Origin: Toxoplasma gondii ME49
Lineage: Eukaryota > Apicomplexa > Conoidasida > Eucoccidiorida > Sarcocystidae
DNA length: 64,000 bases
Assembly: GCF_000006565.2 (NCBI RefSeq)
Contig: NC_031477.1
Location: forward strand, 388,669 to 452,668
Direction: 5' to 3'
Shown here one piece after another: positions 6,701 through 44,700 of the stretch (within the stretch, counting starts at the first letter, position 1; the number at the start of each line of letters is the position of its first letter). A program made the translations under genes and the position numbers. Under the pieces are notes generated by a model that saw nothing but the letters and a program-made list of their open reading frames with translations, was not told where the DNA came from and ran no database searches.

Positions 6701-7133
6701 TCAACTGTTCCGCGTGGGTCTCTGTTAGTACTGCCACCGCGACTAAACTTTCGCAAACAACCGGACAATGCATTCAGTAGCTAAGGGAAGCCGGCGTTAG
6801 CCTTGCCGATGGCAGTGTTTTTCCGAGTGACGCTGCAAGTGTACGTTTCAAACAGCAGTAGTTCATCCCGGTATGTTTAGTGGAAAACTGCTCGTTTTTT
6901 TCAAGTCAGATCCTCGAAGAGTGGTCGACTCAACGTGTCTCTGAAACCTAGTGAGTGATAGCTAACAGTCTCAGTTGGCGGGAATCGGTTTTCAAGGGTC
7001 GGGTCGAGAGAACTCATTTTTCTGGCATTAGTGCCCCGAGAGTTATTTAGTTATTTACATCGATAGTTGTGTAGCTGTAAGTCGTTCTCTTACCTCGACT
7101 GTGTAGTTTTATCGGCTGCGAAAAAAATTCAGT
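3784..7133. other. intergenic region, no gene seen
   Basis: This stretch should hold the 3' UTR of the first gene and the promoter and 5' UTR of the secreted-protein gene. Open frames are short, lack conserved motifs and mostly lack plausible ATG context. Composition is less GC-rich than the coding exons. A tRNA-like A-box at about 4110 has no matching B-box. No other feature could be supported. Confidence 0.6.
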
Positions 7134-8156
7134 ATGAGGGCCGCATCGATAGGGTGGCGGGCGGTGTGTACGAAGAGGAAGGGTGTTCTGCTTTTCACCG
7201 CGGTTGTGTCTATCGTTGGAGAGATCAGTATCTCCAAAATACCCAGTGTCTCAGGCTGGGACCAGGAACAGGGTGTCAATCCCAATGGCGGATTCAACGG
7301 CAATGCTTATACGTACGCTCTGCCTGAGAATCGAGGTAACCGGCCTGCGTACGCGGTCAGTGCGCCGGAAGGTGACAGCAACGAATCATCTGACGAAGAA
7401 TCCTTGAAGAACTCTAAGTTAGGTCCATATAAAAGACCTGCTAAGCATTTTTTCGACAGAATCCGCGGACGCGATTATTACAGACCTCTGCTTGACAGGG
7501 GAAGCCGCCTGGGACTTCGCGAGCACGGGAAAGGAGAGAGTCCACATCATGGCACCTTTCATAAAATCCCGGTGAACTGGGACTTGAACTTTGAACATTC
7601 TCCCGACGAAGCTTCGGAGGTTGAGTCCGCTGTGGACAGCCTCCTCCGTGAATACCGGGAAATGGGGAGACGCGAAGCAGAGCTCATAAGTCTGTCTCCC
7701 GGGGGACACGACAGGTCTAGCAGCCGCAGCAGTCTTGCTCGCCTCGCAATAACTGCAGGTCTGATATCCGCAATTGGAGGGGGAATGCTGCTTACTTTTC
7801 CTGTGGTAGCCAAGGCTCTTGCCGTCGCGGCCGCTGTCGGAGGAGTGGGATCAACTATGTGGGGAGTGAAGCAAGTCATGAGGGGCGGGAATTCCTCGAA
7901 ATCGACTGAACCGCAGCCTGGTGGAGACATAAACTCTGAGTTTGCTGCAGAAGTATTTGCGACCGAGATAGAGAAGGCAAGACACTCTCTGGAAGGAGGA
8001 CGTGAACAACAAAAATCATCGTCAAAATCCGACGGAACAAAGAGCACCCAGACTCAAAGACGCAGGCGGCACAGCCGCAGCCGGAAACATGTGAAACAAA
8101 AGGAGAATGAGGAACTGGATAAGCAGACTGCCTTCGGCACCTCACTTGATGACTGA
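7134..8156 (+). CDS. secreted/membrane protein, dense-granule-like, single exon
   Basis: A 340-residue protein starting at ATG 7134 with no intron. A basic N-terminus is followed by a hydrophobic segment (residues about 17-30) that fits a signal peptide or anchor. An acidic, Ser-rich linker (NESSDEESLKNSK) follows, then an Arg-rich stretch (KRPAKHFFDRIRGRDYYR). A long Gly/Ala-rich hydrophobic segment at about 201-247 probably spans a membrane. The tail is hydrophilic and carries a polybasic patch (RRRRHSRSRKH). Signal peptide, one internal hydrophobic helix, charged disordered flanks and no intron are typical of coccidian dense-granule (GRA) proteins. I do not recognise it as a named GRA, so export and location are inference. 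A short RPLLD resembles but does not match the RRLxx processing motif. The gene is isolated, with about 3 kb of apparently non-coding DNA on each side. Confidence 0.7.
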   Translation: MRAASIGWRAVCTKRKGVLLFTAVVSIVGEISISKIPSVSGWDQEQGVNPNGGFNGNAYTYALPENRGNRPAYAVSAPEGDSNESSDEESLKNSKLGPYKRPAKHFFDRIRGRDYYRPLLDRGSRLGLREHGKGESPHHGTFHKIPVNWDLNFEHSPDEASEVESAVDSLLREYREMGRREAELISLSPGGHDRSSSRSSLARLAITAGLISAIGGGMLLTFPVVAKALAVAAAVGGVGSTMWGVKQVMRGGNSSKSTEPQPGGDINSEFAAEVFATEIEKARHSLEGGREQQKSSSKSDGTKSTQTQRRRRHSRSRKHVKQKENEELDKQTAFGTSLDD

Positions 8157-11307: not shown

Positions 11308-13200
11308 TTACCGATCTGCAACTTTGCCAGACATTTTGCCTGTCGCAGGGTCACTCCGTAGATCGGCCTGTGGTTGTTCCTTCGCGCGTTCTGCGTCCTT
11401 TCGCTTGAAAGCGGAAAACGCGGCGGAACCTGAGAGAGTGAGCAGCACTCCCGCAAGCGCTTGCGGACTCGCCTTTTCGCGTAGAACGATAAAACCTAGA
11501 CATGTCTGCACGCAAGCTTTGACGTAACCCAGAATGTTGAAAGTGAGCGGGGAGGTAAGGCCCACGATCCAGAACGACGAGAGGGTCAGAAAGAGAGCTG
11601 CGACACCTGCCACGGCAACAGAAACAGAAAAGCAAGGCGCCAGGGACTGAAAAGAAGACAGCGACAAAAAGGCGAACTTCGGCCTTCAGACGAGCCGTGA
11701 GCACTACCGCAACACTGCTGAAAGATGCACAACGTCCCGCAGGAGGAAACAAGCCCCTTTTCACGTTTGAGGGTGCGTCTTGTGTAGCGAAATTCGCGAG
11801 TCGACGTGAGAGTTCTGGTGTCTACTCTCCTCACGCGTAACGACTCGAATGATCCCTCTGTTTCTTCCCGTTTCCTTTCCCCCTCCCAGTGCAGACAAAG
11901 GAAACTGCGTGCTGCACCTGCAGATGCCTTTGTGCAGATAGAGGTGTCTCTACCGTCCTTCGAAGTGTGCATCGAGTCTGTCAACAACCCTTCAACTCTG
12001 TCGCACCGTCCATGCAAGGCGCTCCTCTAGCGGCTTTTACGCGTTCTTTATCCAGCGCATGCGTGAGCGGGGCATGCTTTCTTTTCACTGCTTACCTGAA
12101 GCCACTATGAGTAGGAAAATCCAGAAAGGACTCTGGAAGAAGCCACGGTGTCCGTGTGCGACGAGAGCCTCCAGTGACCCGGCAACATCGGATCGCGCAG
12201 GCGACAAACTGCTCTCCGATGCACTGTTCAGTGCTGCCAATGACGGCAGCGCATGTTTGTTCTCCGCCTCTGAGAAAAAGAAGCGAGTGAGGTCGGCACA
12301 TTCGCCCGTGACCCAGATGAGCGGGGGAAACAGAAACGCGGCGTTCACCATGTTGTAGAACATGACGGCGGCGTGGGCGCCGCCCAAGTTGTCGAGAGTC
12401 TTCCGGATGTGAACCGTGTACACAGCTTGAAACAAAGAAGAGACAGCGCCCGTGAACGCCCCCGCGAGGGACAGAGTGGAGGCGTCCAGAGACCCGACCA
12501 GAAAGCCTAGGCAGACGACACCGCAGGAGAGGGCAGCCTCGAGGGAAACGCGGATGTCGAGAATAAGCCTTTGCAGGACCATGTTGAAGAGGAGAGTGAG
12601 TGACCTCGCCACCTGGTAGGTCGATACCTGCACGTGTTTCAGGCAGGTGTTGGAGAAGCCGACCATGCAGACGAAGGCGAGGGAGAGCGGCAGCACTCGG
12701 TACAGAGTCCGCGCGTCTGCGGAGGTCGGAGGGAAGAAAGTCGAGAGACTCGCAGCCGCTGGACTTCTCAGAGAAGATGTGAGCGTGCGGCGGAGAAAGA
12801 GACTCGGCTGACGCGCGAGGCAGCGGGACGATGCCGGCGCTTCCGGCCTCGTCTCAGTCGCAGAACGACTTGCGCGCCCCACTGCAGACAGCAGCAGGTA
12901 TGCGGCAACGCCCACGACTTCCTGTAGCCATGAGAGAGTCAAGGGAAAGGGAAACAAGTCCGAGAGAAGCCGGCGGTTCAGGAAAACGGTGGCGAGTGAC
13001 GCGGCGGTGTAGACGACGCAAGCGCCGACGCACGTGAAAGTTTTCGGGGTGATCTGGGGGAAAAGCGGCGGCCAGAATCTCCAGGAAACGCGACTCGAAC
13101 GCATGCTGGACGGACACTTTGCCTCCGACCGGCAGTTTGACGCCGCAGAAGCAGAAGACGAGACCCCCCCGTCTTCGCGAACTGAGACGTGGCGCCTCAT
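11308..13200 (-). CDS. nucleotide-sugar transporter, GDP-fucose transporter (SLC35C1) type
   Basis: A two-exon gene read on the minus strand: exon 1 13200-12096 (ATG at 13200) and exon 2 11606-11308. The GTAAGC donor is after 12096, the acceptor is a CAG before 11606, and the join is phase 1. The product is 467 residues with about ten hydrophobic helices of the drug/metabolite transporter fold. Matches to SLC35C1 include VVYTAASLATVFLNRRLL, FSNTCLKHVQVSTYQVARSL (human [20 protein letters not shown]), VMFYNMVNAAFLFPPL and SPLTFNILGYVKACVQT (human SPLTHNVSGTAKACAQT). The expected role is import of GDP-fucose into the Golgi or ER lumen in exchange for GMP, supplying protein fucosylation. T. gondii is known to have such a transporter. 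An Arg/Ser-rich loop of about 60 residues between the second and third helices is extra. The usual C-terminal GTAK nucleotide motif reads GYVK. Substrate is inferred from family similarity. Confidence 0.88.
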
Positions 13201-16200
13201 CGCTGTCGCGACGATGAGTTAAAGGAAAGAGAAACCGGTACGAAAACCGGTGTGCAGGTCTCGAGGAAGACACTCTCTTCAAGCGAAACACTCTCGTTAC
13301 ACCACGACAGACTTCAGGTCACAGCCGTTCTTATTTAGATGCAAGGTACGCGGGTGCCCCGATGGCATACGCCCCCGGGATGTCAAGAAAAACTGCCTCA
13401 GAGTTGCAAACAGAGCAGACCTGACCAGAAAAGGGAAGGTGTGATGATGATGCTGCTTGAAAAAACACGAAAATGCGGAAAAAGAGTCGGTGTGTTGAGT
13501 CTGCGTCCAGTGTAAACTCTTTCCTAGCGCCGCTTCATCGCGCCTGCATTGGGAGAGAGTAGGAAAGCGTGGCGAACTGTGCCCTAAGAGAAAGACCTCA
13601 GGGATGGCAAGAAGACAAGAGGCTGCCGAATCCTTTTCGCAGTCTTGTTACCTCTGATTCCAGACGAGCTCACGCTCTTCGAAATTTTTTTCTCGACCTG
13701 TGAAACGCGTACTTGTGCTTCGTGCGTCGAGACCGACGCGACCCTGCCTTACCTCAGCCTACAGCTTCTCCAGGCGCATGCGCGTGCACATCTGGAAAGG
13801 GGTCGCCAGCGGCGCCTTCACTGCCACATTCGCCACGGAAAAGTCTCTTAAAATGAAACCATGAGGGAAGAGAAACTGTACGCTGCAGGCCTTGGAAACC
13901 TCTTCATCACTGAAGACACGACAAGCGGTTTTAACGATTACAACGCCGCCCTGTGCTACAGACGTGCGCCGTATTGAGTACTGGTGGCTCCTCGATTGTG
14001 GCCGCGTGAATATTGATGAAAGGGAAGCTCATAATGCCGTTTGGTTTGCAGAACCGAGAAAAGATGTTCTTTTCAGTTTGAGTAAAGAGCTGCCACAACA
14101 GGGAAGGAAACCACTGTCTTTCGACCCACAGATATAGCGAGGGACTTGATTACATCAGAAAAACGCTGCTGGCCATGGAACTGCATTTCGACAGCAAGAC
14201 ATAGTAAAACGTACTACCTCAGAGCATAAGAAACTTTCCTATGCATGCAGCTCGAATGTTTCTGTACGATGCACGCAGATCAGTTTCAAAGATCCTCATC
14301 ATCCTGACACAAGGACGGCGGTTCCTTTACGGCGTGCAATACTTCAAGACTAGATTGGCCGATATAGACAACATGAAAGATAAATCAGATTCGCCATGAG
14401 GACAAGCTCCCTATACCCTGTACAACATGACGCTTCCTGATGAAGCAGTGCATTTGCAAAGCAACGTTAAGCGAACTGTTGGCATCGAATTTTGACTAAA
14501 CTGCGTGACGATTCGTTCTCCAGAGCTTCGCTTCTACGTCGAGTTTTGAACCCCAGAAAAACCTAAGACTATCGCAGAGGAGTGTGTCACTGTGTCTTGA
14601 AGCAGTCCTGAAAACGAAACCAAACGTGCCAGCTCTGATTTAAATGTACTGCTTTGAAAATTCCCGCAGGAACAAGCACATGTCGGCGAGCGCCGGTCTT
14701 CGCCTGGGACCAACGACAGAACCCCTGCTCTCTCACGCGTGGTTGAACACGGCCAGAGTGAAATTGGACCATCCACAACGCAAATCGTTGCACTAGGGGA
14801 TCTTCAAATGGAGAACATAATCGGAAATACATTGATATTACTCTCCGAGGCAGAGGAAGCGTCAGAGGATGCTTGCGGAACTCGTCTCGCCAATGGAAGT
14901 TTTGTAAACCAACTTCCGCCTGGACTAAGCACTCCCCTTCTTTGACGCACGTTCTTTATTGAAATATGCTTGATCTCAAAGGAACACTGCAAGCGTGTGC
15001 GTTCTTGACACTGGAGGGTAGGGCGGAGCAAGGGTGAGCGACATGCACAAAGTTTGCGCTGGTCGGATCAATCACAGAGACCGCTCAGAGAAATCAGCTA
15101 GGTTTCGGAGCACCGAACAGGTACCCAGGTCGCGAGAAAGACGGGAGGCAGTTTAAGTGGCCGCGAAGTTGGTCCTCCTGTTCGTCGCACCAAGGGTTTT
15201 CACTTTGGTGCTCTGAAAGTGTTATTACTTTGAAGGCGAACCACATAAAACAGACAACTCAGGAACAGGCAGAGTGACACAGCCAAAAAAGAGGACAGTC
15301 AAAAAAATGTGCCCAGTCCATACACGCATTACCTTACTACTGGTGCCGTATTGCGCCTTTTTGCTCGCAATCATTCTCCGCTTTTCTCTTGCTCGGTCGA
15401 CCCCCTGGACAGCCTCAGTTTGTATTTCGTTTGTGTCCCCTCGGTGATTCTCTCTCCCGAGGACCCTCAATCGATCTGCCAGAATCGGGATGCCTCCTGG
15501 ACACGAGCGAGACTCGCTGGCGTCTCGATGTCTGCGGGACGCCCTTGTGACTTTGGTATGATTAAAGCGGAGAAGAGGCAATAAGACGTTGGATCGTCCG
15601 TAAAATGCTGGATCTAAGGTATACAATGGTAAATTTGAAGTGGAACTCTCCCTTACTTCGCCGGTAGTGGCACCCTCTGTCCCAAACGCAGAAATCCGTG
15701 ATCGACTACGTCAAAGCTGAATCCCAACGAGGTATGCGAAGGTTTCCACGGACGTTTTGTTCTTGTAAGCCGTTCCCAGTTAAGAGATTCTGCGCGATTG
15801 GCACCATCTGCCATAAATGCAGAGAACTTCTTGGTTCGCTTCAACTGCTGACTACGGCTGTGGTCACTGGGTGCCTTTCTCTCGCAGAACGCTCAAGTTT
15901 TGAGGGGGTTGCTTTTGTGCAGCAAGAAACAAGACAGTCAGTTGCAGGCCTGTTCGGCGTTAGTCTCGTTCTCAAAAGCATCCTCATAAAAATCCATTAG
16001 CGGGGCACGGGAGAGTCACGAACAAAGCCGCTTGAGATGAAAAGGACAACGCACATTTTCAGACGCGTCATGCTGTGCCATGCAGCGCGAAGTACTTGCC
16101 TAGGAGTGTGCGAGGGGACCTTTCGTGTCCATTGTTTTGTCGCAAATCAGGTTTATGAACATCCGCTGTGTCCAACCATGACGTTCAAATTTAGCTCAGA

Positions 16201-21500: not shown

Positions 21501-23051
21501 TTTTCCGCGTTTCGTCGCCGAGTCCGGCTTCTCCGGTCTTGCGCAGCCGTACGAGGAACCCAGTTTTCGTGGATTTTTTAATGCCTTTTTGTGCCCCAGT
21601 GCGGAACAACACAGAACCTTTTACAAGCGCAAATCTCTCTCGGGTTCCGAACTTCGAGCTCACTCTCCCTCCTTTCTCTCTGTTGAAGAAGGCACGCGAA
21701 GCGCCAGCAGCTGCGCCGTCGATTTATGTATCCGGTGCCGCGTTTCCCCGACAACGATTTAGATGCTGAGTTCTGTTGTGTCTTGTTTAGAGAAATCTTT
21801 CGAGTTTCTGGAAGTCCAGTGGTTCCGAAGGACCGACGCGTTGAGCATTTTCGGTGGCTTCCTAAATTCGTTCCGGGTCGTCCCCAGTGTCTTCTTTTTC
21901 CCCACTCGGTTTCCTTTGCAGAACAGCGGGGCCGGGGCGCAGAGCCCTTCGCTTTTAGACAAAAAGAACAAACGGTAGAAGCCCTCTGATGGAAGCTCTA
22001 CGGCCTCGCTGTCTTGTTACGTGGTAACTCGCGTTCCTTGGTTGCCAGCGCTGTGGGTAGCCGGCAAAGCAGACCGTGTCGCCTTTCTACGAACTGAATG
22101 AGCCCAGGCTTCTGTAACGGTTTTCGATGAACAGACGTCGAAGAGCTCGCTCCTTTTCGTGTGCACCAGAGTGCTTACACAAGACTTAGACGCCCGTGTC
22201 TCAGTTGTCTCGGAGAGAGAGCGGCTGCAAGAGAATTCGAGAGTTATTTTTCTTTCTCACAGGTTCGCGGTTTCGAAGGGGACCGGTGACTGCCGCAACC
22301 CAAGCTTCAGGAACCCGGAGAAAGGAAATTCCAACAGGTTCTCACACAGTCTGAGGATCCGAACTCTCCAGATTATCTGACCTGTTACTCTCCACTTCGA
22401 GTCCTTTCACAGTTTCTCGACGGCATGCCGCCTGTCCAGTCTTTCTTCGCGTCTGGCATCTCTTGGTGGCGACAAGTCGAGGATCTCTAATAACGGCCGT
22501 CGGGATTAGCTTAGATGTGAGCTTTCCCCGTCTTCAGTCTCGCGCCTTCTGCCTCGCATCTCGTGCTGTGACGCAGGCCGGGGGCTCTGGTCGACCTGGG
22601 AGGTGAAACTGTATCGGTCTGTCATCGGTGTCGCTGTTCTGCTCGTTTCTGCTCTCTCTCTGAACACACAGGCGCGTGCCGCCCTCAGCTTCGCGCCTGT
22701 ATCCTTTTGCCTGGTGTCTGCCGAGACCGGTCGGAACTGAGCGCATTTGTCGCGTCTCTTCGTTTTCTCCTCTTCTTCGTCTTGATCTCTCCCTGCGTGT
22801 CTGTCCGTCTCGACATGTGCGTAGACGCGGCGTTCAGTCTGTGTTGGCCTGCCCTCTCTTTTCCGAGATTCCGCTGTGAGCACGGTCCCGTCGGTGTGTA
22901 GTGATCGCCGCCTAGACCCGCAGGTCATGGCGATGCATCGAGGGCCGTAGGAGCGTCTGTCCTCGCTGTATGTGTTTCTCCTCGCCGATTCCAGAGCGGT
23001 CTTGCGCTCTCGTGGCGCCTCCCTCGCAGCCGCAGAATCCGCAATCTGACG
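18508..23051. other. intergenic region upstream of the channel gene
   Basis: About 4.5 kb without a supported gene. A 192-codon ATG frame on the minus strand (21291-20713) and a 135-codon plus frame without any ATG (20246-20653) carry no recognisable features. The last kilobase is GC- and pyrimidine-rich and probably forms the promoter and 5' UTR of the channel gene. Confidence 0.5.
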
Positions 23052-26000
23052 ATGGAAGGCCGCGAGACATCTGCGGGAAGGCCTCTCTCTTCTCGCCTGC
23101 TTCAGCTCGCGCGCGAAGCTGACGAGGCAGAAGCAGCGGGTCGCCTGGACCTGACCTCGCCCCTCTGCGCCGCTGCCTCTCCCGACAGCCTATGTGGATC
23201 CGACAGTCGCCTCCTGCAAGCCGCCGGCGAAGGAGACGCGGCCGGGCCTCCCGCTTCTTCAGGGACTGTCTCCCCGCGCTCTCGGGCGCTTGGGAACCCG
23301 ATTCCCTTCGGAGACAGACAGCATGCGCGACGCCTCACCTCCCTCCCGTATCGACGGACCTCCTCTGCTTGTTTGATTCCTCTCCTTTCGTCTTCTGCGG
23401 AGGGCCGGACGCCGTGGAGAGGCGAAGAGACCCCAGAGGCCAGGGGTCTCGTGTCTGTTTCCGCCCACGCATCTGGAGCCCAGACTCGGGCGCGCGAGTC
23501 CCGCGTCTCGTCCGTCGCCTCCGATTGCGAAGAGGGTGAAGTGTCTCCTCTCTTCTCGCGGCGGGAGAGGCCCCGGCAAGAGACCGTCGCGTTGCCGCCG
23601 CTCCCTCGGTCTTCCGTGGCGCATGCAGGCCTCGCCGCAGACTCAGGGAAGAGCCTCCACTTCAGAGAAGCGGAAGTCGTTGCGGCGTTAGCGCCCGCGT
23701 CCTTCGCGCGGACCTTGTCTCGCCTGCGAACCCGCGGCAGAACTCGCGAGGGCGAGGAGACAGGCGCAGTGCTGGAACGAGAAGTCCCCAACGAAGACGG
23801 TCCAGAGTGCGCGCCCGTCGCAGCCACCCCCTGTGTCCCCGAGAAAGAGCGAGAAAAAGAGAGGGGGAGAGAGAGACGGTTGGTGGAGGGTAGCACAGAA
23901 GAAGGTCGGCGAGGAGCGGACGCAGGTTTCCTTGGTCCGAGTGGAGAGCGAGAATGGCGAGAGGTCTCGTTAGAGGACGAGTCTGCGCAGCCGATGGTTT
24001 CGTTTGCACCAGGCCAGAACCGAATGCGTCATCTCCGGTACCAGCGTTCCTCTTCTTGGGAACCGAGCACAGCTGCTGCGTTTGGGTCTCAACCACCCAC
24101 GGGGACCGGCGCGAACCGCGCGCCGCTGCGGGCGGGCCTCGCCCGCGCGGGTCTCCAAGGCCCCTCGCCGCCGGCCCAGAACGGCGCGGCGAACTCGCGA
24201 AGTGGGGGCCCGGCTCACTGGGGGGCGGTCCCGAACGCATGCAGTTCCTTCGCGACGGGGTCGTCTCCGGCGTCTGCTGCGGGAGCAGTCGCAGTCCCTG
24301 ACCTCGCTGCGTCGGTCGCACTGCAGCACCAGATGGTCCGACTGGCTGAAGAGCTGCTGTACTCGCCGGAGGAGAGTTTCCACTCGGGTCCCGTGCAGCG
24401 AGGCGCGCATCCGTCGTCGAGTGCGTACCCTCCCGCCTCCTTCACCTTCCATGAACAGCAGCAGTCGCTGTTCCACCTGGACAAAACGCGCGTTCCCGTC
24501 CTCGCAAGTTCGGGTTCCAACGCCGACAGCCTCGGGCCTTGGGAGGCCCTCTCGCCCAACGGGCCCGCGCGCTTCGGCGGGACTGTGACCCCTGGAAGTC
24601 TGCTCGGTGGGCCAGGGTACCCCACGCGCGGCTCCGAGGGAACCTTCGACTTCGACGCCCCCCGCAGAGACTCCACCGGCTTCTGGGCCTTCACTGGCGT
24701 GTGGGCAGACCAAGACGCCGCAGCGGCAGAGTTCAAGAAAATCGCCGCAGCACGAGGCGGGGTGAGGCGGACCTTCGTGAGGGATCCTGGTGGCGCGGGG
24801 AGAGAGCGAAACAGAGAGACAGGAGAGACACAGAGGAGTCAGGGCAGAGAGCGAAACAGAGAGAGAAATTTTTGAGAGGAAGAGAGAACTATATGAAGAG
24901 GGGGGAAAGAGGACTAAGGGGAGGGAGAGAGAGAGATGGAGAAAAAGCAAGAGAGGAAGGAACGCAAAAAGAGGAAGAGACTGAGAAGCGGAGATGAGCC
25001 TTGTCTACTACACTCTTCACTTGCAACCGATGGCGACTTCTCTTCTGTGTGTCTGCAGAATGGTTTGATGACCCTCCACGCATTTCGTCTCTTGGTGACG
25101 ATCTTTGTCATTTTGGATGTCCTGAAGTTCGGGGCTTCGACCTACTTCCCTCCGTCGAACTACGTAGGCGCGTTTCCACAGGTGTTTACGCAGCTCGCGT
25201 CTTTCGAGTGCAGCAGTACACTCGGCGAATGAGAATACCACTCGTATGTCGTCCTTTTCGTCTCGACACAGATCGGTGCAGACGTGAGTCCGAGTTGAAT
25301 TTGCATGGAAATCTGCATGCTCACACTTCGTGCCTTTGTCCGTTTCGCTTACTTTCACTTCACTTCGATTTTCTTCTAGGCCTCCCCCGTGCATCCGTTG
25401 GCTCGCTGCTTTTGCTGCACCTTTCGCTCTCTCCGCAGACCGCCTTCTTGGTGTTCTTGTTCCTCAATTTGGGCGTGTGGCTGTTCTTTCTGGCGGAGGC
25501 CGCGCTGAAGATTCGACTTCTCGGTTTTCGGAGATACATGAATTCGCTCTTCACGTTCTTCGACGGATTCCTCCTGCTGATCCAGTCGGCGGCTCTTGCA
25601 GTCCGATTCGCGATCGTCCTCGATCCAGACGGAGTTGGAAAACCTGTTTTCGACCCCGGTTCGGTCGAGCGAGACGACTCAATCGTCAACGAGTTCATGC
25701 AAAGCCGCATCCACGTCGCCCTCCTGGTGAGAAAATAAAACGTACAAAAACTCGAGGGTGAACATGTATATGAACATATACGTGTTAAGGTGTGGGCTGT
25801 GTGTGTTTCCATTTCTATCTATACGTTTATTTTTGTTTCAATATTTGGAGGTATTCATGTAGCCATATAGGTACTCCATTTGGAGAGCCGTAGGAAGAGG
25901 CGTCTGTGTAGAAGACGAAAGCTTCGAGTGGAAGTCGAGAAGAACACGAGAACAACAGCTAGCAAGAGAGGGGCCTTTGTATCACTTTTGACTCATGTGG

Positions 26001-29000
26001 CTCGTACAAAATCAAACTGAAATATTCGCTATAACTACTGGTCAATGGATGCGTTTGAACGTCGCTTCAGCATTGCTGAGCTGCGCTGCGTGCAACTTCG
26101 TTTTTCGGCGCGTGGTAAATTCTCTTCTTCGCATCGGTCGATCGATGCTTCCAGGCTCTGTGGGATTCAGAGGAGAAAAGTTTGTGATTTTGTGTCGGCT
26201 TTTTCTGTCCTGAGAGTCGAGAGCAGTCTCTAAATCGAGCGGGTACCGCCCACGCTGCTTTTACGACGTCATCTTCAGAGATGACGCCGCCTTCGCCCCC
26301 CCCCCCGTGATTTTTTTCTTGTGAACCTTCTTTCTTTTCTGCCGCTGCTTCACAGACTCTGGACACGATTCAACTTTGCCGCGTCTACCGCCTCACCTTC
26401 TCGTGCCGGGAGCTTTTTCTTCTCACAAAAAGTAAGCGCGGGTTGCCTCTCTACGGTGTCTCGACACCTCATGCATGCGTTTGGAGCCCAGCTGTATGTA
26501 CACCTGGAGCACTCTCTTCCGCTGCCTTGCCGGAACGCGTGTTCGTTATCGGGGAAATGCGTTTTCCCTCGGCAGATGCCAGTCCGAGTTGGCGTATGGA
26601 GGAGTCATGGGGACTTTTTTTTTGTTTTATTTTTCCTGTGTCTCACCTCACCCGGAAGTCCAGTTCCGGTTTCCGTGTTCGCTCTCAGAGTCAGAGGCGG
26701 AAGATCGACAGTCGCCACGTTCAAGTTCTTGACGTCCTGGTTGTGTGGTTTATCTTTTTCGCAGGCATTCTGCACAGTCTGCGGTCTCTGCAGTGGACGG
26801 CGTTGTTCGTCTTTTGCGTGATTTACACTTGCGCTATCTTCTGCACATGGACATTCTATGTAAGGTCTCCCGGTCGAACAGCGACGAGCGTGGATTTCGC
26901 TGTCCACGTGGAAGAAAAGTAGAGATATCTCGGCATGCATGTCAGAGAAGCCAAGATGAGTTTGTATACATGCAGAAGAGTATCTGAAGATATATATGTG
27001 TGTGTGCATGATAAATATCTAAAATGTGGCTGCACACATGGAACAAGGATTTCTGTATGCTTCTGTGGATCTGTAGAATAAACATTCATCAAGATGTCTG
27101 TGTACGCATGCGCGTACGCAGATCTAAAAAGTAGGATGACAAGAGGGTGGCTGTTCAGATGGCATGTCTGTCTGTGTGTGTGTTTGCCGGAGTTCCGGTT
27201 GATCCTCTTGTGGTTTCGGCGACTAGTCACGTTTGAACAGTGGCGCATTTCTGCGAGCGTCTTTCTTCTCTGTATCTGGACTCTTTGGAAGATGAGTTGA
27301 AGAGTCAGCTGAAATTTTCAGTGTAAGCCGTAAACGAGGAGTAGCACGTTCAAGGGTGCTGTGTCTTTGCTGTAGCTGTTTTTCTGCATGCGTTGATTTC
27401 TCGCTGTTCGCAGGATGCAGACGACGCTGAGATGAGTCTCCTCTGGGGCAACTTGATTCTGTCGATGTTCACACTCTTCACAGTTCTCACCCTGGAAGGT
27501 AGGTTGCTGTACTGCAGATTTTTCCTTGTAGCATGGAGTTTCATTTCACACTCTCTCTAAACACAGAAGATGCTGAGATCTCTACACTTACATGTCCGAA
27601 ACGCTTTCGCGGAACAGAGGAAACAACAGTCGGAGCGCCTCGACGGGGTCACCCCCAGAGATACTTGGCCGCGTAAGACAGTGAACGTGTGGGGTGTCGA
27701 TATCCAGCTACAACAAGGTTAGTCCACTTGAATAAGAAGCATCGAGTCGAGGCAAGGCAGAAACGGGCAACGCGCGAAGGAAAAGAGATTTCTTAGAGAG
27801 GATGTAGACGAGGGTATTCCGAAAAATCAGCAAGTGATTGGACAGCCTATGTGTGTGGGGGGGAGGGGAGGGGAAGCCGAGATGGGGAGCGATCTTTGGG
27901 GAGTCTCGCATGCGTGTCACTTAAGAGAGACAACGGAGTTTCGTGCGTTCGTGGGGGAAGACAGAATTCAAGAAGCCATCCATGATACAGGTAGTCTCTC
28001 GAATTTTTTCATCGTCCTATTTTCTCTCCATATATCTAGAGACGCATTCTTTATATATGTATGCATGTATATAATATATATATATATATATATATGTATA
28101 TATGTGGTAGCAGGTGGATGTTTACAGATGTGTGTGTGTTTTTGTGTGTTGTTTCCCCTTAGGATGGAATGGAGTAGCCAATTCAACCGCAGAGAAGCAT
28201 CCTTTCAGTCGCATCTTCTTCGTCTGTTTTATTTGCTTTACTACGCTGACTCTCTTGAACATCGTTACTGGTAAGGGCGAGTTCGATGTCGTTTTTGTGG
28301 CTTCTTACACAATGAGTTTCCTCCGCTTGCACCTTTTTTTCGCTCTGTCACTGTGTGGAGAACGGACCGCATGCATGCGGGGAATGGGCGAACTCACAGG
28401 CGACAAAAAAAAAGACGAAGGAACCCCCCCCCCTTATCATTTGTATATATCTTTCCGATGTATCACATATATAAATACATATGTATACATATTCATATAT
28501 ATATATATATATATGTATATACAAGGTGAAAACATGTCCAGTGTCGCTTTTTGTGTTTCTCTCTGGTGTTGTCTGTCTTCGACTCTTCGACTGTCCGTTT
28601 TCTCCCACGGTGCCCCCCCCCCTCCATCCGTCAGTGGTCGCGGTGTTTTTTTGCAGGAATCATTTTGGATGCGTACGTGGACATGTCGAGTCGCCTCGCG
28701 GCGGAGGCGAGTTACCACGAGCACTTGGAGAAGGACGCGCGCAACGAGGATTTGTTGACGAAGGCGTTTCAGCAGACTGAGTTTCTGTTTTCGTTGCCTG
28801 CGAGTGCGGCTGCGACTTCCGGCTTCCGGAACTGGACGAGTCTCTCCCGCAGCTCAGGCGAGGGGAACAAGTTGTCTCTGGACTCCGGAGGGCCGAAGAA
28901 AGTGCCGGAGGCGGGGAGTTCTGACCGCGAGAAGGGTGAGGAACGGCGAAGCCAGGCGTTTGCGCGAGCGAGCACAGGGACCTTCTTCAGTCCTGCGCAT

Positions 29001-31142
29001 GCAGAGCCGGACCGCGAGGCCTCAGCAGCCTCTGCCTTCTTCGTAGAGGGAGACCGGACTTTCCAGACGGTCGGTCAGTGTGGGTCGTCTGCAGGCAGAG
29101 GCGCGAAGCTCGAGAGGAAAACCACGGGTCTCACTAGCGAGTGTTCCACGACCGCCCGGCCGCCCACAGAGGGCAACGACGGCAGCAACGCGGGAAGCGG
29201 CGAAGGTGCAGAAAAGGGAGAAAAGACAGACAAGTGCGATAGAGACGAGAAAGGCGAGAGGGGAGAAGATCGCGGGTGTGCGCCGAGGAAGGCTCAGGAG
29301 ACTTGTGGGGTGGAAAAGGGAGGAGGTGACGGAGACGGACAAGGACCAGGGTCGTTGGAGGAGACAGAGGACGAGGAGAGACGACGAGAACGCCGAAGCA
29401 CCCTCGACGGCGACAGCAGCGGAGACGCTCACGAAGACTCGCAGGCCTGGAACGAAAAGGACCGGAAGCCGAAGCAGTCCGGCGCCGCGAGGTTCCTCAG
29501 AAGGGTCCAGGCCAGTGGCATCTTCCACCTGGGACGCAAAGTCCCACACGTCGAAGAAGAGAAAAAGGACGAACGAAAAGTCGTCGCCTGCCTCAACCTC
29601 GCCAACCTGCATCCCCTCGACATCCTGCAACACCCTGCAATCCTCGACGCCCTCGAGGTAAAATGACACGCAGTTCGCGCGCAGTCTTCTCTGCGAGGCT
29701 TTGCAACTGCATGCGGTTCCGGAAGTGCATGCGTGGAAGGTGCCAGGGCTCCCCTGCATCCACCGCGTAGTCTCCGACACATCTGAGCATTCATTTTCGC
29801 ATCCTGACGAGTCCGCGAACCACCTTTTGTCTGGCAAATGTGCATTCCTACATGCATGCACATATATATATATATATACATATATGTATATACATACATG
29901 TGTATATATGTGTATATCTTTTCTGAATAGTGTGTGAAGGTAGATTAGTGTACGTGGAGGGTAGAGAGATGTGCGGATAAGACGGGGAGAAGTTGGATTG
30001 GGGGTATGATTGGCAAACCGTTTCTCTGCGTTCGCTCCCTCGGGGGTATGATCTGTGCGCTTCATTGCATGCGGTTTGTGGGCTTTCTTTTGTATGTTTG
30101 CGTGACGTTCTGCACAGAAAGCAGGCATTCCGCTCTTCCAGGCGTTCGATGTTCTCAATCTCTACTACACTCGCGGGGTCGAGTTCATCACTGGTAAGCG
30201 AGGAAGTTGGGGGCCTCAGCCGGTGACAAGAGAAGAACAACCCTGTCTTCAGACAGCTGTTTGTGGGGGGACTGCATGCGTCGGAAAACTCAAATGTGTG
30301 AGACGTCAGAGACGAAGGGGAGACCCGGAGGAGTGACGACGAGGTCTGCAATCCACCGACGAGTTTTTTCGAGTTTTTGCTCTCGAGCGTTGCACCATGA
30401 GCATCTGCATGTGCAGAGAAGTCCAGTGAGGTTGATGGGTTGTCTGTGTCCCCAAACTGTAGTCATGTATTCAGTGACTTGGATTCGAGTTATACAGTTT
30501 TGTATATCGGATCATTTAGGCAGAGGCACTATTTACCTAACAGTGTGGTAATTACAGTATCCTCATCCAAGTGCATGCGCAAAGAACGGAGGAACTGCAT
30601 GCGGTCTTTGTTGATCACTTCCTCTCTCCTCCCCAAACCCCTTCAACTTACGTTTGGTCCTCTGCTCATGCGCAGCGCGTCCCTACAAGTGTGTGGTGTA
30701 GACGGCACAGCGTAGGAAAGGTTCAAGCTCTAGAAAGGAACGTCCCTGTTCCTCTCGCGCGCGCTTCGTCAGTTCCCAGTGAACTCTAAGTCTCTTGCGT
30801 CTTGGTGTCGTTTGCATGCGTGGTTTCCCCTCTTTCGCAGTGAAGGAGTTTGCGGAGTCCTGTGGACGAGTGTGCGGGACATCGACGGGTCGGCAACTGC
30901 TGCAGATGCAAATTGATCTCCACCAGAAACTGAATCGCGTAGAGAAGCGGGTGCGGAGACTCACCAGGGCTCTCGTTCAGCAGCAACAGCTCGTCCTTCT
31001 GCAGCAGCAGCAGCTCCTCAGTGCAAGTACACCCGGTGGGGTGTACAGACCCTCGCTGTCTTTCGCCAGCGGGGCTGGCGCGACGAGGGCGCCTCTCTCG
31101 GGGGCTTGCCCGTCCTCTTCTTCGGCCTACATCGCTGCCTAA
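23052..31142 (+). CDS. single-domain 6-TM voltage-gated-type cation channel (BacNav/EukCat-like)
   Basis: My exon model is 23052-24776, 25059-25181, 25439-25726, 26356-26431, 26765-26859, 27414-27498, 28163-28270, 28657-29657, 30118-30193 and 30841-31142. All phases join and give about 1292 residues. A disordered N-terminus of about 575 residues precedes one six-helix domain. S1 is in exon 2 (FRLLVTIFVILDVLKFG), S2-S3 in exon 3 (FFLAEAALKIRLLGFRRY), S4 in exon 4 (LCRVYRLTFSCREL) and S5 in exon 5. Exon 6 carries the pore helix, and the filter T-L-E-G-W-N-G is completed across the exon 6/7 junction. S6 ends NIVTGIILDAYVDM. The TxExW filter is that of Cav repeats and bacterial Nav channels, so Ca2+ and/or Na+ conduction is likely. 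The C-terminus has a degenerate EF-hand-like segment (FDVLNLYYTRGVEFITVKEF), then a Gln-rich coiled coil. The second exon could instead end at 25163. Most introns carry (TA)n tracts. Confidence 0.85.
28051..28104. repeat. (TA)n microsatellite in channel intron 6
   Basis: An alternating TA run with TATG interruptions, shortly before the acceptor of the S6 exon. Confidence 0.9.
28468..28523. repeat. (TA)n microsatellite in channel intron 7
   Basis: A TA-rich run preceded by short poly-A and poly-C tracts (about 28405-28435) in the intron between the S6 exon and the long C-terminal exon. Confidence 0.9.
29861..29918. repeat. (TA)n microsatellite in channel intron 8
   Basis: A TA/TG alternating run following a CATGCATGCA palindrome in the intron after the long C-terminal exon. 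Confidence 0.9.
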
Positions 31143-38788: not shown

Positions 38789-41700
38789 ATGGGAACGGGA
38801 ACGGCTCCGCCCGGGCCGTCCTCGTCAAATTCGACCCTTTGTTACTTCGTCACTTCTCAGCAGCCGGGGTGCGCACGATGCAGCATCTCGCTCCGCTTTC
38901 GGTGTCCGTACACCCGAACCTTGGTGATTGCGCGGCCACACAGCCTGGTGTTTGTCCATCCACAATCGTCAGAATGCGGCCATTCTGCCGGCGCACCGGC
39001 AGGTGACTTTCGGCAGACCACCCTCCTGGAAGAGCGCGATGTAGACATGGAAGAAAATGATGGACGTGACGGATCTGCTTCACTGGCCGGTAGTCCTGCG
39101 CCTGACCGGCGCCCACGGCGAAGGAGCGAAGATGTGCCGGAGGAAAGTCGATCGGCGCAAGACTTTTCAGCGTCCTGGACTTCTGGTGAAACGTTCAACC
39201 CCATCACTCTGCCCCTGTATGCCGACGTCTTTTGCATGGCCGCCTTTCCTCGGGTTTCGCGGATCTCCCGCTCCGACTCGAGCGTCTGCCGAGTGAATGG
39301 CGGGGGCTCGAAGGCGAGCGCAGAATCAGCCGAACTCGAGGACCTTCTCGTTCTGACCGATCGACAGATTCTTCTACTTCTACGCTACGACGAAGAGAAG
39401 CAGACTGTCGTGACAGTCGAAAGCATCGACCTCAAGGTACGCTAAGAAGCCCTTTCCGGACCACTCACTCCGAAATGTGTTGCGCAAACAGGACTCCTCC
39501 GTCGATAAGGGAGGCAGATGAGTGTGCCCGAGTGGTAACGTTGTGCAGCTGTTTGCCTCTCGTTTTGTCTGTGGTGATGTTCTTCCGCCGATCTCTTCTT
39601 ATGTACCGCTGTGCGGTCGCCTTCGCGGTGCGGTCCTCGCATCCGTCCAGGCGGGCTTCCCGCCTCCGTTTTTCGAGGTGTTCTTTCCTTTCTGCGCCCT
39701 CGCCCCGCTCAGACCGGCCGGTGCCTCCCGCTGCGCGTGACTCTGTTCCTCCGTCTCCTCGTCCGCTCGTCCGCTGTTTCCGAGTCTCTCCACTTCGCAA
39801 CCGCCTGCACTTTTTCGCGGGCTCTCTTGTCCTTGTTTGCAGGAGGTCAGCACGCGGTTTGTGGACGGCGGTCCCTTGATGGCGGTGTGTCCGACCACGC
39901 GGTGCATTGTGGTGTATCAGTATGAGTCGCTTCTCCAGTACCTGCCCTTCGGCCCAGAAGCGAGTTCTTCCCTGTCTCCTGCTCGAAACCATGAAGCGGG
40001 TTCGTCCCTGTTTTCCGGTGTCCGTCTCTTTCGGCTGGACGAGCAGAACGTTTTGGATATCTGTTTCCTTCCTCCTCCGGAGGTCTGCGGCCCCGCGAAG
40101 AGTTCCGCAGCAGAAGGCGCGGAGCCCAGCGCGGGCAGTTCCTCGGCGCTGGCGCTCTGGGTGATCCGAGGGAACCACGGCTTCCACGGTGTCGCCTCCG
40201 GCGCGAGTTGTCCGCCTCCCCTTGAGAGAGAGAGCGAACGAGAAGCCGGTGCAACGCTCACTGTCCAGTCTGCACATCTCTGCGTGCTGTATGAAACTGT
40301 CGAAGGCCAGGTTTCTGCAGCGCCTGGCAGCTTCCATCGCTTCCAGAGATTCATCCGAACAGTGCGCCTGCCTCTGGACGATCTCCTCTTTCCCCCGAGG
40401 AGCGCGGCTCCTCATCTCTGGACGTCTCCGTACCTGCTCCATCCTCTCCGAGTCAAGAGCTGCAGTTCTCGCCTCTTTGCTCCGGCCTTCGCGCCCCGCG
40501 CCGCCTCCGAGGTCGGCCGCTCGAGACGTCAAGGAGAACGTGTCTCCGAAGGCGGAGACGCCGAAGGGCTCGCACCGTGTCTCCTCGTTCTCGGCGCAGA
40601 GGAAATCCTCTATCTGCGGTTCCCCCACTGCGCCTCGTTACCCAGCGTTCTGCTGTCGGATCTCTCTTCCCTCTCCCTCACGTTCGACGGATCGATTCCG
40701 GGTCCCCTCGTTCTGCGTCACCGGGGGCTGCCCTCTGGCCTCCAGGAGATCGTCGCCGTCGAGCAAGTCCGGGAGGTTGATGCGGAGGCCGCGGAAGTCA
40801 AGCACAGAAAGGTTTTCCTTCTAGGCGATGTCTCTGGTCAAATATACATGCTCATGCTGTTCGAAAACTCGCGGCCGAGGCCGCAAATGGAAATCGAGCA
40901 ACGCCTCACAGGAGCCAGTGAGTGGCGTTTATAGGGTGGGAGAGCGCCGCAGCGAAGAGAAGACGCGCTCTCGGGAGGGAGGCGTTTACGGCGCGCGAGA
41001 AGAAACCAGATGCTCTCGAGGCCTGGTAGGGCGCGAAAGGCAACGACAAAAAGTCGCTGTCGGAGACTTCTCGCTTTGTCTGTTTCGCGTGCCTAGACTG
41101 CATGCACACGGACCAGGTGTCAGTACAGGGCGCCGAGTGGTCGGGTGGAGACGCGAGGGTGATCGCTTCTTCACGACTCCCTTTTTTCGTTTCTGTGGGG
41201 TGTCTGTGTTTTTCAGGCTCCAGAGAATCGCCTCGGCCCTCTGGCGAGGAGGCGTCTGGGAGAGCGGCACGCATGTGTGTCGAGTGGCTCGGCCAAGCCT
41301 CTGAGCCGACGGGTTTATCTTACTTGGGGAATGGAATCCTCTTTGTCGCTTCCGCAACTTCCGACTCGCTTCTCCTGCGCATTCTGGACGTCGGACGCTC
41401 CGTCGAGGGCCTTCAGCGCCTCTTCTCCGAGAACGCCGCGAGACGTTTGGAAGCCGACGCTCATCTCTCTCTCGAGCAACCCCCACACGCACAGAAGGGC
41501 CGCGAAGAAGGTGCAGAAGGACATGCAGGAAACCATGCAGGAAAAGACACGGAGCACAACTGGGAGAGGTGCGAAGAACGAAGTGAAGAGGACGGTGATG
41601 CACTGGGTCGTAATAATTCAAGAAACGCTGTGCGAGACCTGGGAGCAGAAGGAACTCTCCAGCTCGCGCAGAGAAAGGCACGAAGGCGCGACATGGAAGA

Positions 41701-44700
41701 GCGACCGTCTGAGTCAGCCAAGGGAATGGATGTCTCAGGCAGACTTCAGCTTCTTCAAGTTTTTCCTAATCTCGGACCAATTGTCGATTGCTGTCTCGCC
41801 GAAGTCGAAGGTCTCGATCAACGCCTGGTGAGCATATGTGTTTTACTTTTGCCAAGAAGGTTGTTTGGCTTCTCTTGCGACATTCTTTCTCTTTTGAGGC
41901 GTTTGAAAGTCTCCTCGCTTTCTCGACAGGCGCCATCTTCGTTTTCCTCGCACTCGGACTTACCACACGCTCACAGGGACTTTGACTTCCAGGTCTTCCG
42001 TTCTTTCTTCTTGTGTCTCCTGCGTCTGCTCTCTTCGCTTTCCTTTCTTCTGTTCGTCTGTCGCACTCTCTTCTGGTGTTTGCTGGTTCCGTTTTTTTTT
42101 CTGCGTCTCCACTTTCCGGCGCTGTCCTGAGTGGTCTCGACGTGCGAAGGAAGTCTGCACTCGTGGGCAGTCAACCGATGCCTTTCTCCCTCTCGCGTTT
42201 TTCACTTGTCTCGTCACATGTTTCACCTTGATTTAGTGCGTTGTTGTTTCATTCTGTTTTATATTCTTTCACTTTTTGCCTTGGCTCCGTCCCTCTTTCC
42301 CTCAATCCTCTTCGTTTGAGACTTTTTTCGTACGAGACTTTTTTCACTGCTCATCTGTCTCGAGCCGACACCTTCGCTTCGTCCCCTTCAGTCACATGTC
42401 CGAGTGCTCAGTGGACGAGAGTTGCTTTCCGGAGCAGACTGCGCGTTCCTGCTCTCTCGTGCGTTTCTCGTTCATGTCGAAGGGCAGGGGAGGGGGTCCG
42501 TATGTGTAGGGTGGAGACAGCTTCGTTGTGTCTCCGTGACTGCTGAGTGGCTTGCTCCTGTCTCCTCGTTTTCTCAGCTGATTGTTGCATGCGGTCACGG
42601 ACGCAGCACCTCTCTGCGTTTCATTCGAAGTGGACTCGCCCTGCATGCCTCGTGTGCGAGTGTGGCGCTGCATGCGCCCGTTCACCGCCTCTGGACTCTC
42701 GACTTGTCGCCTTACGCCATCGCTGCGTCAGCCACGGGCATGCGCATCTCGGGAAGGCGGAGCCACACCCGCGGAGAGTTCTCGAAGACGCGCGCGGACG
42801 CGCTGCTGGCTCGAGGTCCAATCGCCGTTCTGGCCTTCCCCCACGAGACGCGCGTCCTCGCCTGGACCCTGAAGCCGCGCGGCGACCGCTCAAACCCAAA
42901 AGGTGGAGAACGAAGAAACAGGAAAGAGAGCGAAGGAGAAGGAGGGAGGGCGAGAGACAGAAAGAAAAGAAGAGGAAAGAGGAAAGAGAAAAAGGAGGGG
43001 AGAAGAGCCGAGGAGAGAGAGAAAGAAAAGAAGAGGCGAGCGAGACAGAAAAAGAGAGGAAGAGGAAAGAAAGCCAGAAAGAGAAAACGAGAACGAAGGG
43101 TAAGGGAAAACGGTGGGGAGAGGAAGATAGAATTCCTAAAGAAGTTAAGAGGAACACAGTTGAGGAACTCATTACTCTCGATGGAGTAGCAGCGAGTGAG
43201 GGAGAAGGAAGGATACGAAATCCGTGCGCCTGTGCATCCCGTATTCCTTTTTCTTCTTTTTTCTTGCGTCGTCGGAAGCGCGTTCGTCTGGGGCAACGCC
43301 TCGTCATTGGAATCCAGAGCACTTTCAAAGTCTTCGCTGGATCTAACGCCGCCTGCAGTTTATGAATGCAGTCTGTCCTCCGCATTCGCTGTCCCACGAA
43401 CAGAAGAGTCTCCTTTTGTCTCTGCTGAGACTTTGTCTCGGGTTTCATCTGAGTTGGGATGATACGAGTTTTCGTGCAACTACTTTGATACGCAAACCTT
43501 TAATTTGTGGTTGAGTGTAGGTTGACACGACTGTTTTTTCTCAATAAGTGACTGTTTTGATATTGGATTTTCGCATTTATTCACTTCTTTCGGAGCACCC
43601 GGTGAAAATCCACGCCCTCCTTGTCTCTGTTCAGGCGTGCATCGACCTTAAAATTTTGTTCTTTTCGTTGCACTCAGCCGCGGACATTTCTTCGATGGAC
43701 GTGGAGATGGAAGAACATGGCGGCGTCTCGTCGCGCGGGCGCTTCGAAAGGCGCCGGGGGAGAGAAGAAGGAGAGCCAGACTCGGAAGGCTCCGAGGCGG
43801 TGTTGGACGAGATCTGCGAACCGCTGCTCTCCTCCGAGTTTCATGAACAAAACGATTCCTTGAAAGAATCTAGCTTCGGTTTCAAGCGCGACGAAACGAC
43901 CATCTTGGCGACAGCCCTGCGACTGCCTGGAGGATGGCGACGCAGGACTGTCGAAAAAAAAGACCTCGTGGCTCACCCAGCTGCATGCGCCGAGACAACG
44001 TGTGCATGCTCCCTAGGCCTTGTCCAGGTGAGACACAGAGTGGAAGAAGAGACCAGTCGCCTAGTGAAGGAGAGAACAGGAAGACCTTGAAACCGTCGAC
44101 GCAAGAGTGCATGAGAAGTCCGTTTCGTCTGAAGAGACGCGCATCGAATTCGCGAGTCGGTAAACTCCTCGTTTAAACTGATGGTCTCACAGGTGCATGA
44201 TGGCGAACGCCTAGATCGTAGCAGTGGAGACTCCGTCGTGGTCAGGCGGGGAAAAGGCAGAATACAGGAAACTGGGCGAATCTGGGTTTTGGTGTGTACT
44301 TGAGAGGCGCATGCATGCATTTTTCTGTGTCAAGGCTTCAAAGATGCCTCGTTTCTGTCGGGAAGCGATCAGAAAGGTCTTCTTTTTGGATCTAGGTTGT
44401 CACTCGAATCAGCGAGGGAGGAGACAGTTCACAAGCGAGTATGAGCATTCCGACAAAAGTCGAAGTGAATACTTCTGGATGCAGTTCCACTTATATACAC
44501 TGTGTGTGTGTCCGTGCGTGCATGCGTTTGCGTTCGTCGGAGTGGGCGTTGGCAGATGCACAAAGAGACGCTTGTTTTGAGCTGTACCTCTTCCCCTTCG
44601 CTCTCCTCAACCTTGCGTCCACTTCGTTTCTTGTCCTTCTCCACACTGTGTTCTTCCCTTCCACTTTAGCGCGTTGCCGTTTTCTCTTTTTTTCTCCAGG

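Follow-up and report, generated by a model that had tools for sequence, protein, structure and literature searches.

A stretch of 64,000 nucleotides (nt) from Toxoplasma gondii ME49 (NC_031477.1, positions 388,669 to 452,668 of the forward strand), here called the window, contains a gene with ten predicted exons. In our judgement this gene probably encodes a single-domain cation channel subunit, with six membrane helices (S1 to S6) and a TLEGW selectivity filter, likely forming a Ca2+-selective pore in a channel of four subunits. A second gene on another contig of the same genome (C3) is homologous to it in the channel domain, in the C-terminal domain and in intron positions. The two are likely a family of single-domain channels with two genes in coccidians, in which the C3 gene is the member of the type of CACNAP, a Neospora caninum protein described below.

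Single-domain channels in Toxoplasma are not a new idea. In 2011 Prole and Taylor (PMC3194816) listed four T. gondii homologues of voltage-gated Ca2+ channels (Cav), one of them with six helices (XP_002370025), and proposed that tetramers of individual subunits are formed by the homologues of T. gondii and Babesia bovis. XP_002370025 may correspond either to the window gene or to its C3 sister. The T. gondii homologues are stated in that paper not to be four-domain channels, which is at odds with the four repeats that we found on contig C8. We found no literature that deals with both EukCat channels and Toxoplasma. No functional study attributable to the window gene surfaced among the papers listed on EukCat, CatSper, CACNAP and T. 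gondii Ca2+ entry, which include few subscription papers.

Results and discussion

A single channel domain in a ten-exon gene

The ten exons (Table 1), as spliced in a preliminary description of this DNA, join in frame across positions 23052-31142 of the plus strand. They give a coding sequence of 3,864 nt, which corresponds to a predicted protein of 1,287 amino acids (aa) and a stop codon. All nine introns begin with GT and end with AG. The predicted start is the earliest Met codon of the frame past the preceding stop (frame 22905-24875). In exon 2, a further donor at 25164 (GTAGGC) is in frame besides the one used at 25182 (GTGTTT), and splicing from it would remove six residues between S1 and S2.

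Pfam matches the predicted protein to Ion_trans once, at residues 578-841 (E 1.8e-21; score 76.9 bits, cut-off 25). Residues 790-794 form the filter, T-L-E-G-W, the Gly codon of which is interrupted by an intron; N-G come next. The pore helix, the acidic filter and S6 are all intact and in frame. Of the six helices previously read from the exons, five (S1, S2, S3, S5 and S6) are visible by hydropathy together with the pore helix, whereas S4 is inconspicuous. A profile of five channel domains was run, with search filters off, on all six-frame stop-to-stop frames of at least 25 residues in the whole window. It found no second channel domain in the 23 kb upstream or the 32 kb downstream, and matches at E <= 1 occurred only in frames holding exons of this gene. 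The earlier proposal of exactly one S1-S6 domain with this filter is therefore upheld, and the further channel domains that were to speak against it did not appear in the window.

The genome that was searched (G000) comprises 65.3 Mb in 1,959 contigs. A search with the Ion_trans family returned ten places and missed the window gene, the introns of which cut up its domain. One of the ten places is the sister gene on C3. Four others form a locus on C8 (G000:C8:1504819-1512599; L001-L004) with four Ion_trans repeats, the filters of which are TLEGW, TGESW, TNEGW and TGEDW. These repeats lie in two long open frames and introns are absent inside them. The locus resembles an ordinary four-domain Cav, the two frames of which are likely one gene, and two adjacent XP records listed in PMC3194816 may be its halves. 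Judged from sequence, the genome holds a single-domain channel, the window gene, alongside a likely four-repeat one.

The filter and the voltage sensor

Ca2+ selectivity is predicted for the window gene because the filter TLEGWNG has an acidic residue followed by Gly, as in CavMr, a Ca2+-selective channel of bacteria. In CavMr, the filter is TLEGWVD and the Gly at position 4 determines Ca2+ selectivity; the mutant D7M, which has one acidic residue, is reported to be still Ca2+-selective (PMC7041947). PMC10120453 associates a Gly directly after the acidic residue of the filter with Ca2+ selectivity among channels of one domain. The first five of the seven CavMr filter positions are those of the window gene.

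The voltage sensor has fared differently. In a gapless alignment, S4 of the window gene reads LDTIQLCRVYR, compared with LRTFRIFRVMR in the bacterial channel used for comparison and ARLLRVLRFIR in the C3 sister. The first two gating positions hold Asp and Gln, and the third and fourth hold Arg. As S4 keeps two of the four gating charges, voltage sensing by this subunit is likely reduced. The Phe and Glu of S2 and the Asp of S3, which we take to be the residues of the charge-transfer site, are kept by sequence match. In the bacterial comparison set, S4 could be read in 54 of 80 loci, and all 54 have both RxxRxxRxxR and TLESW; the other 26 were missed by the pattern. This set is biased, as it consists of the best 80 of 574 relatives and was selected in part with words from S4 and the filter. 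Like CavMr and the bacterial Na+ channels (BacNavs), the window gene has a single domain, and it has its best single-domain pore score with channels of this kind. It differs from them in its depleted S4, in its very long cytoplasmic tails and in its introns, including the one in the filter codon.

The sister gene on C3

The sister gene also has ten predicted exons, all with GT-AG borders (G000:C3:795843-803819, minus strand, read from 803819 to 795843). Its predicted product is 1,150 aa, with the S1 exon beginning at residue 421 and one Ion_trans domain at about residues 431-677 (Pfam E 4.2e-24). S4 is full. The filter is TMTNWDV, with Thr at the third, selectivity position and Asp at position 6. 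The window gene differs from it in the filter (TLEGW against TMTNW), in the depleted S4 and in a longer N-terminus.

In a two-sequence BLASTP comparison, the two proteins are 30% identical over 137 aa (E 9e-18); the alignment across S1-S6 has 70 identities among 243 residues. Eight of the nine introns of the window gene are matched in the sister and all eight have the same phase. Four of these are in the identical alignment column, three are at most 3 columns apart and one is at most 9 columns apart. The intron in the filter codon is among the four with exactly equal column and phase. Each gene has one private intron. The C-terminal domains match one another reciprocally (41% at E 0.001; 34% at E 6.4e-6). 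This conserved domain, encoded at window:29610-30990 (plus) and in the C3 counterpart, has the pattern HPLxIL ... Q-A-[FY]-D ... IT-V ... TxRQL and is not listed by Pfam. By eye it resembles a helix-loop-helix in which the residues that usually bind Ca2+ are absent.

In genome searches the two genes were detected from one another only by C-terminal probes; the channel-domain probes missed the partner gene. No third family member was found in the genome with probes from either gene, where only the best candidates were scored exon by exon and a diverged member could escape. Two candidate paralogues were set aside. The match at C13:1694609 (E 0.026) contains two stops and that at C9:1547013 has E 0.115; in context both look like chance. 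In viral contigs, 18 stretches fit a search pattern and none of the 18 encodes a relative.

One kind of subunit or two?

The channel that we favour would be built from four subunits gathered around one pore, where a ring of Glu residues would select Ca2+. With its depleted S4 the subunit would sense voltage poorly, and assembly or regulation may be aided by the C-terminal domain. Are the four subunits the same? The existence of a paralogue with complementary features means that a homotetramer is not the sole option. By sequence, the losses in the two genes appear complementary, with the filter acid lost in the C3 sister and the sensor charges lost in the window gene. Co-assembly would be the simplest reading of this. 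In an obligate two-gene heterotetramer, the window subunit would give the Glu ring and Ca2+ selectivity, and the CACNAP-type sister would give the voltage sensor that opens the channel. Such divided labour would explain why a CACNAP-type protein without the usual selectivity acid can be needed for Ca2+ influx. The proposal is weakened by the Asp at position 6 of the sister filter, and we put it forward tentatively, as possible but somewhat doubtful.

A homotetrameric, voltage-gated Na+ or Ca2+ channel of the EukCat type, close to what the preliminary description had suggested, is in our view unlikely. The single domain and the BacNav-like pore agree with it: in common with EukCatA, EukCatB and EukCatC, the predicted channel is eukaryotic, has one domain and is of BacNav type, and EukCats have been reported from alveolates (PMC10120453). 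However, voltage gating does not sit well with S4, as EukCats are described with four conserved positive S4 residues (PMC8002053). The EukCat filters given in that paper and compared here, TLDAWAD (A) and TGESWSE (B), differ from TLEGWNG. Pfam lists no EF-hand, a feature of EukCatB, for the window protein or the C3 sister, and the existence of a sister with complementary traits also speaks against the EukCat reading.

Nearest relatives

Among the best 60 of 95 Protein Data Bank (PDB) sequences at E <= 1, the best matches to the window gene are bacterial single-domain channels. They are led by 6yz2 (E 3.9e-15), titled 'ion transport protein', which we presume to be NavMs; Cav1.2 (2.6e-13) and CatSper3 (7.4e-11) come next. 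When the window gene and its sister were combined in one profile, the one domain of 5hvx scored 73.6 bits and the best individual repeat of human Cav3.1 (6kzp) scored 48.7. Judged domain by domain, the pore thus appears closest to bacterial channels, in agreement with the BacNav-type pore first proposed for it.

The CatSper3 match raises another possibility, a divergent CatSper-type heterotetramer of the flagellated microgametes with accessory subunits. Such a channel would fit the presence of more than one kind of single-domain subunit in one genome, a trait possibly in common with CatSper1-4, and Gly follows the acidic filter residue in CatSper3 and 4 as it does here. On the other hand, the TxDxW filter of CatSper1-4 is absent, the third position being Glu in the window gene and Thr in the sister, and two genes were found, not four. 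The accessory families CATSPERB and CATSPERD were not matched in the genome, in a search that had no working control and did not extend to other accessory subunits. Neospora CACNAP, moreover, acts in tachyzoites. We consider a CatSper-type channel improbable.

Could the gene instead be a detached repeat, or a mis-annotated fragment, of a four-domain Cav? The filter TLEGW is found in repeat I of the C8 Cav, a member of the same superfamily, and also in repeat I of human Cav3.1 and 3.2 (PMC7041947). We built a tree from S4-S6 (135 columns, 18 sequences, LG+G4) without CatSper pores. Of the 80 bacterial loci fetched, 8 entered the trees, and human Cav3.1 was represented there by three of its four repeats, without repeat I. 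In the 18-sequence tree, the window gene and its sister group together (support 93.9/96), as do seven four-domain repeats (94.2/86) and nine bacterial channels (96.1/89). The four-domain repeats thus group without the window gene, and an origin nested inside a four-domain channel is disfavoured by the tree. Approximately unbiased (AU) tests did not make the same separation. None of ten constraints was rejected at 0.05; the lowest value was 0.0595, for the window gene alone with Cav repeat III, and the six constraints that place the window gene with a single Cav repeat had p values of 0.06 to 0.38. In a wider tree with CatSper pores the deep nodes were poorly supported. There the pair split off at 92.1/63 and adjoined repeats II and IV of the C8 Cav, weakly (75/15). 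Against an origin as a Cav repeat, the four Cav repeats of this genome are together elsewhere, at one locus on C8, and other channel exons that would make up four linked S1-S6 repeats were not found in the window. In its introns and its C-terminal domain the window gene agrees with the C3 sister, whereas the C8 repeats sit in open frames. A detached or mis-annotated Cav repeat seems highly improbable.

Least probable of all is an intact yet non-conducting or regulatory subunit, a role that would suit a protein with long tails and a depleted S4 but that is hard to square with the intact pore.

Relation to Ca2+ entry

CACNAP (NCLIV_005460) is described as a plasma membrane protein of 1,069 aa with six helices in a domain at residues 403-651 (PMC12075863). 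Parasites without it respond minimally to 1.8 mM Ca2+, egress more slowly and are less motile (PMC12075863). The closest T. gondii relative given there is TGME49_222060, with 39.83% similarity and charged regions like voltage sensors (PMC12075863). The window gene has one Ion_trans domain, six helices and a long N-terminus in common with these proteins. Nevertheless, the CACNAP layout, which agrees with that of the C3 sister, and the remark on voltage sensors fit the sister and not the window gene, with its domain at 578-841 of 1,287 and its depleted S4. The C3 sister is possibly TGME49_222060 and the counterpart of CACNAP, on the basis of layout and chromosome number. By analogy with CACNAP, the likely site of the single-domain channel would be the parasite plasma membrane, and its use may be Ca2+ entry for motility and egress. 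About 80% of Toxoplasma Ca2+ influx is reported to be blocked by nifedipine (PMC8216714). TRPPL-2, described as the sole characterised plasma membrane channel, is nifedipine-insensitive and accounts for about half of Ca2+ uptake (PMC9799330). On sequence grounds, the tetramer of separate subunits in the preliminary description is likely and its link to Ca2+ entry plausible.

Several points weigh against a Ca2+-selective single-domain channel of this kind, in addition to the AU values and the placement beside repeats II and IV given above. Position 7 of the filter is Asp in CavMr and Gly in the window gene. Retaining two gating charges, the channel might stand constitutively open, respond to a ligand or be silent. 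The whole-chain score is led by human Cav3.1 (6kzp; 80.7 bits, E 1.3e-21). The link from CACNAP to the window gene passes via the C3 sister, with the basis just stated, and as 39.83% seems low for direct counterparts CACNAP might match another gene. A C-terminal coiled coil, a feature of EukCatA, is a weak reading here: the heptad periodicity was not significant, being matched in 111 of 2,000 shuffles for the window gene and 551 of 2,000 for the sister.

Exons and other features

Table 1. Exons of the single-domain channel gene, in window positions
Exon	Positions	Strand	Content	Basis
1	23052..24761	+	Start codon and 570-residue N-terminus ahead of S1; low complexity by eye	
2	25059..25181	+	S1; alternative in-frame donor at 25164	
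3	25439..25726	+	S2 (FFLAEAALKI) and S3 (TFFDGFLL); Phe/Glu and Asp of charge-transfer centre kept	
4	26356..26431	+	S4, TLDTIQLCRVYRLTFSCR; Asp and Gln at gating positions 1-2, Arg at 3-4	Gapless alignment
5	26765..26859	+	End of S4-S5, and S5	
6	27414..27498	+	Pore helix and filter TLE (27489-27497), then first base of Gly codon	
7	28163..28270	+	Filter G-W-N-G (28163-28173) and most of S6	
8	28657..29657	+	End of S6 (IILDAY) and long variable cytoplasmic linker; HPLDIL near exon end (29610-29627), common to C3 sister	
9	30118..30193	+	Start of conserved C-terminal domain (KAGIPLFQAFDVLNLYYTRGVEFIT); 76-nt exon at same place in C3 sister	
10	30841..31142	+	Remainder of conserved C-terminal domain (VKEFAESCGRVCG...), Gln-rich helix, stop at 31140	

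The window also contains an exon of a membrane transporter of the triose-phosphate-translocator family at 12085-13218 (minus; Pfam TPT, E 1e-9). In a 349-residue frame at 7107-8156 (plus), inspection by eye shows an N-terminus that looks like a signal and one more hydrophobic stretch; the frame has no Pfam match at E 0.01 and resembles a secreted parasite protein. At 41030-42130 (plus) there is a weak match, below the cut-off, to the first beta-propeller of RSE1/DDB1/CPSF1 (E 0.001).

Among the other channel-like loci of the genome, an Ion_trans match at G000:C11:3037645-3038049 (L018) appears to be another channel gene, with an S4-like segment, RMLRLIRLVRLIRVAK, that has several arginines, in a 389-residue open frame. 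By eye, L005 resembles a two-pore channel and L006 a K+ channel, and L007 and L008 are channel-like exons beside membrane segments of polycystin-like look.

Conclusions

The window gene may bear on Ca2+ entry, a process for which the Toxoplasma molecules behind the influx are only partly known. A candidate Ca2+-type pore and a sister without the selectivity acid provide two loci that can be removed singly and together. If the two products do co-assemble, then the filter and the voltage sensor of one channel would be split between two genes, and the Apicomplexa would join the story of single-domain eukaryotic channels. In such a heterotetramer, parasites would have evolved with two subunits a counterpart to the four-subunit arrangement of CatSper.

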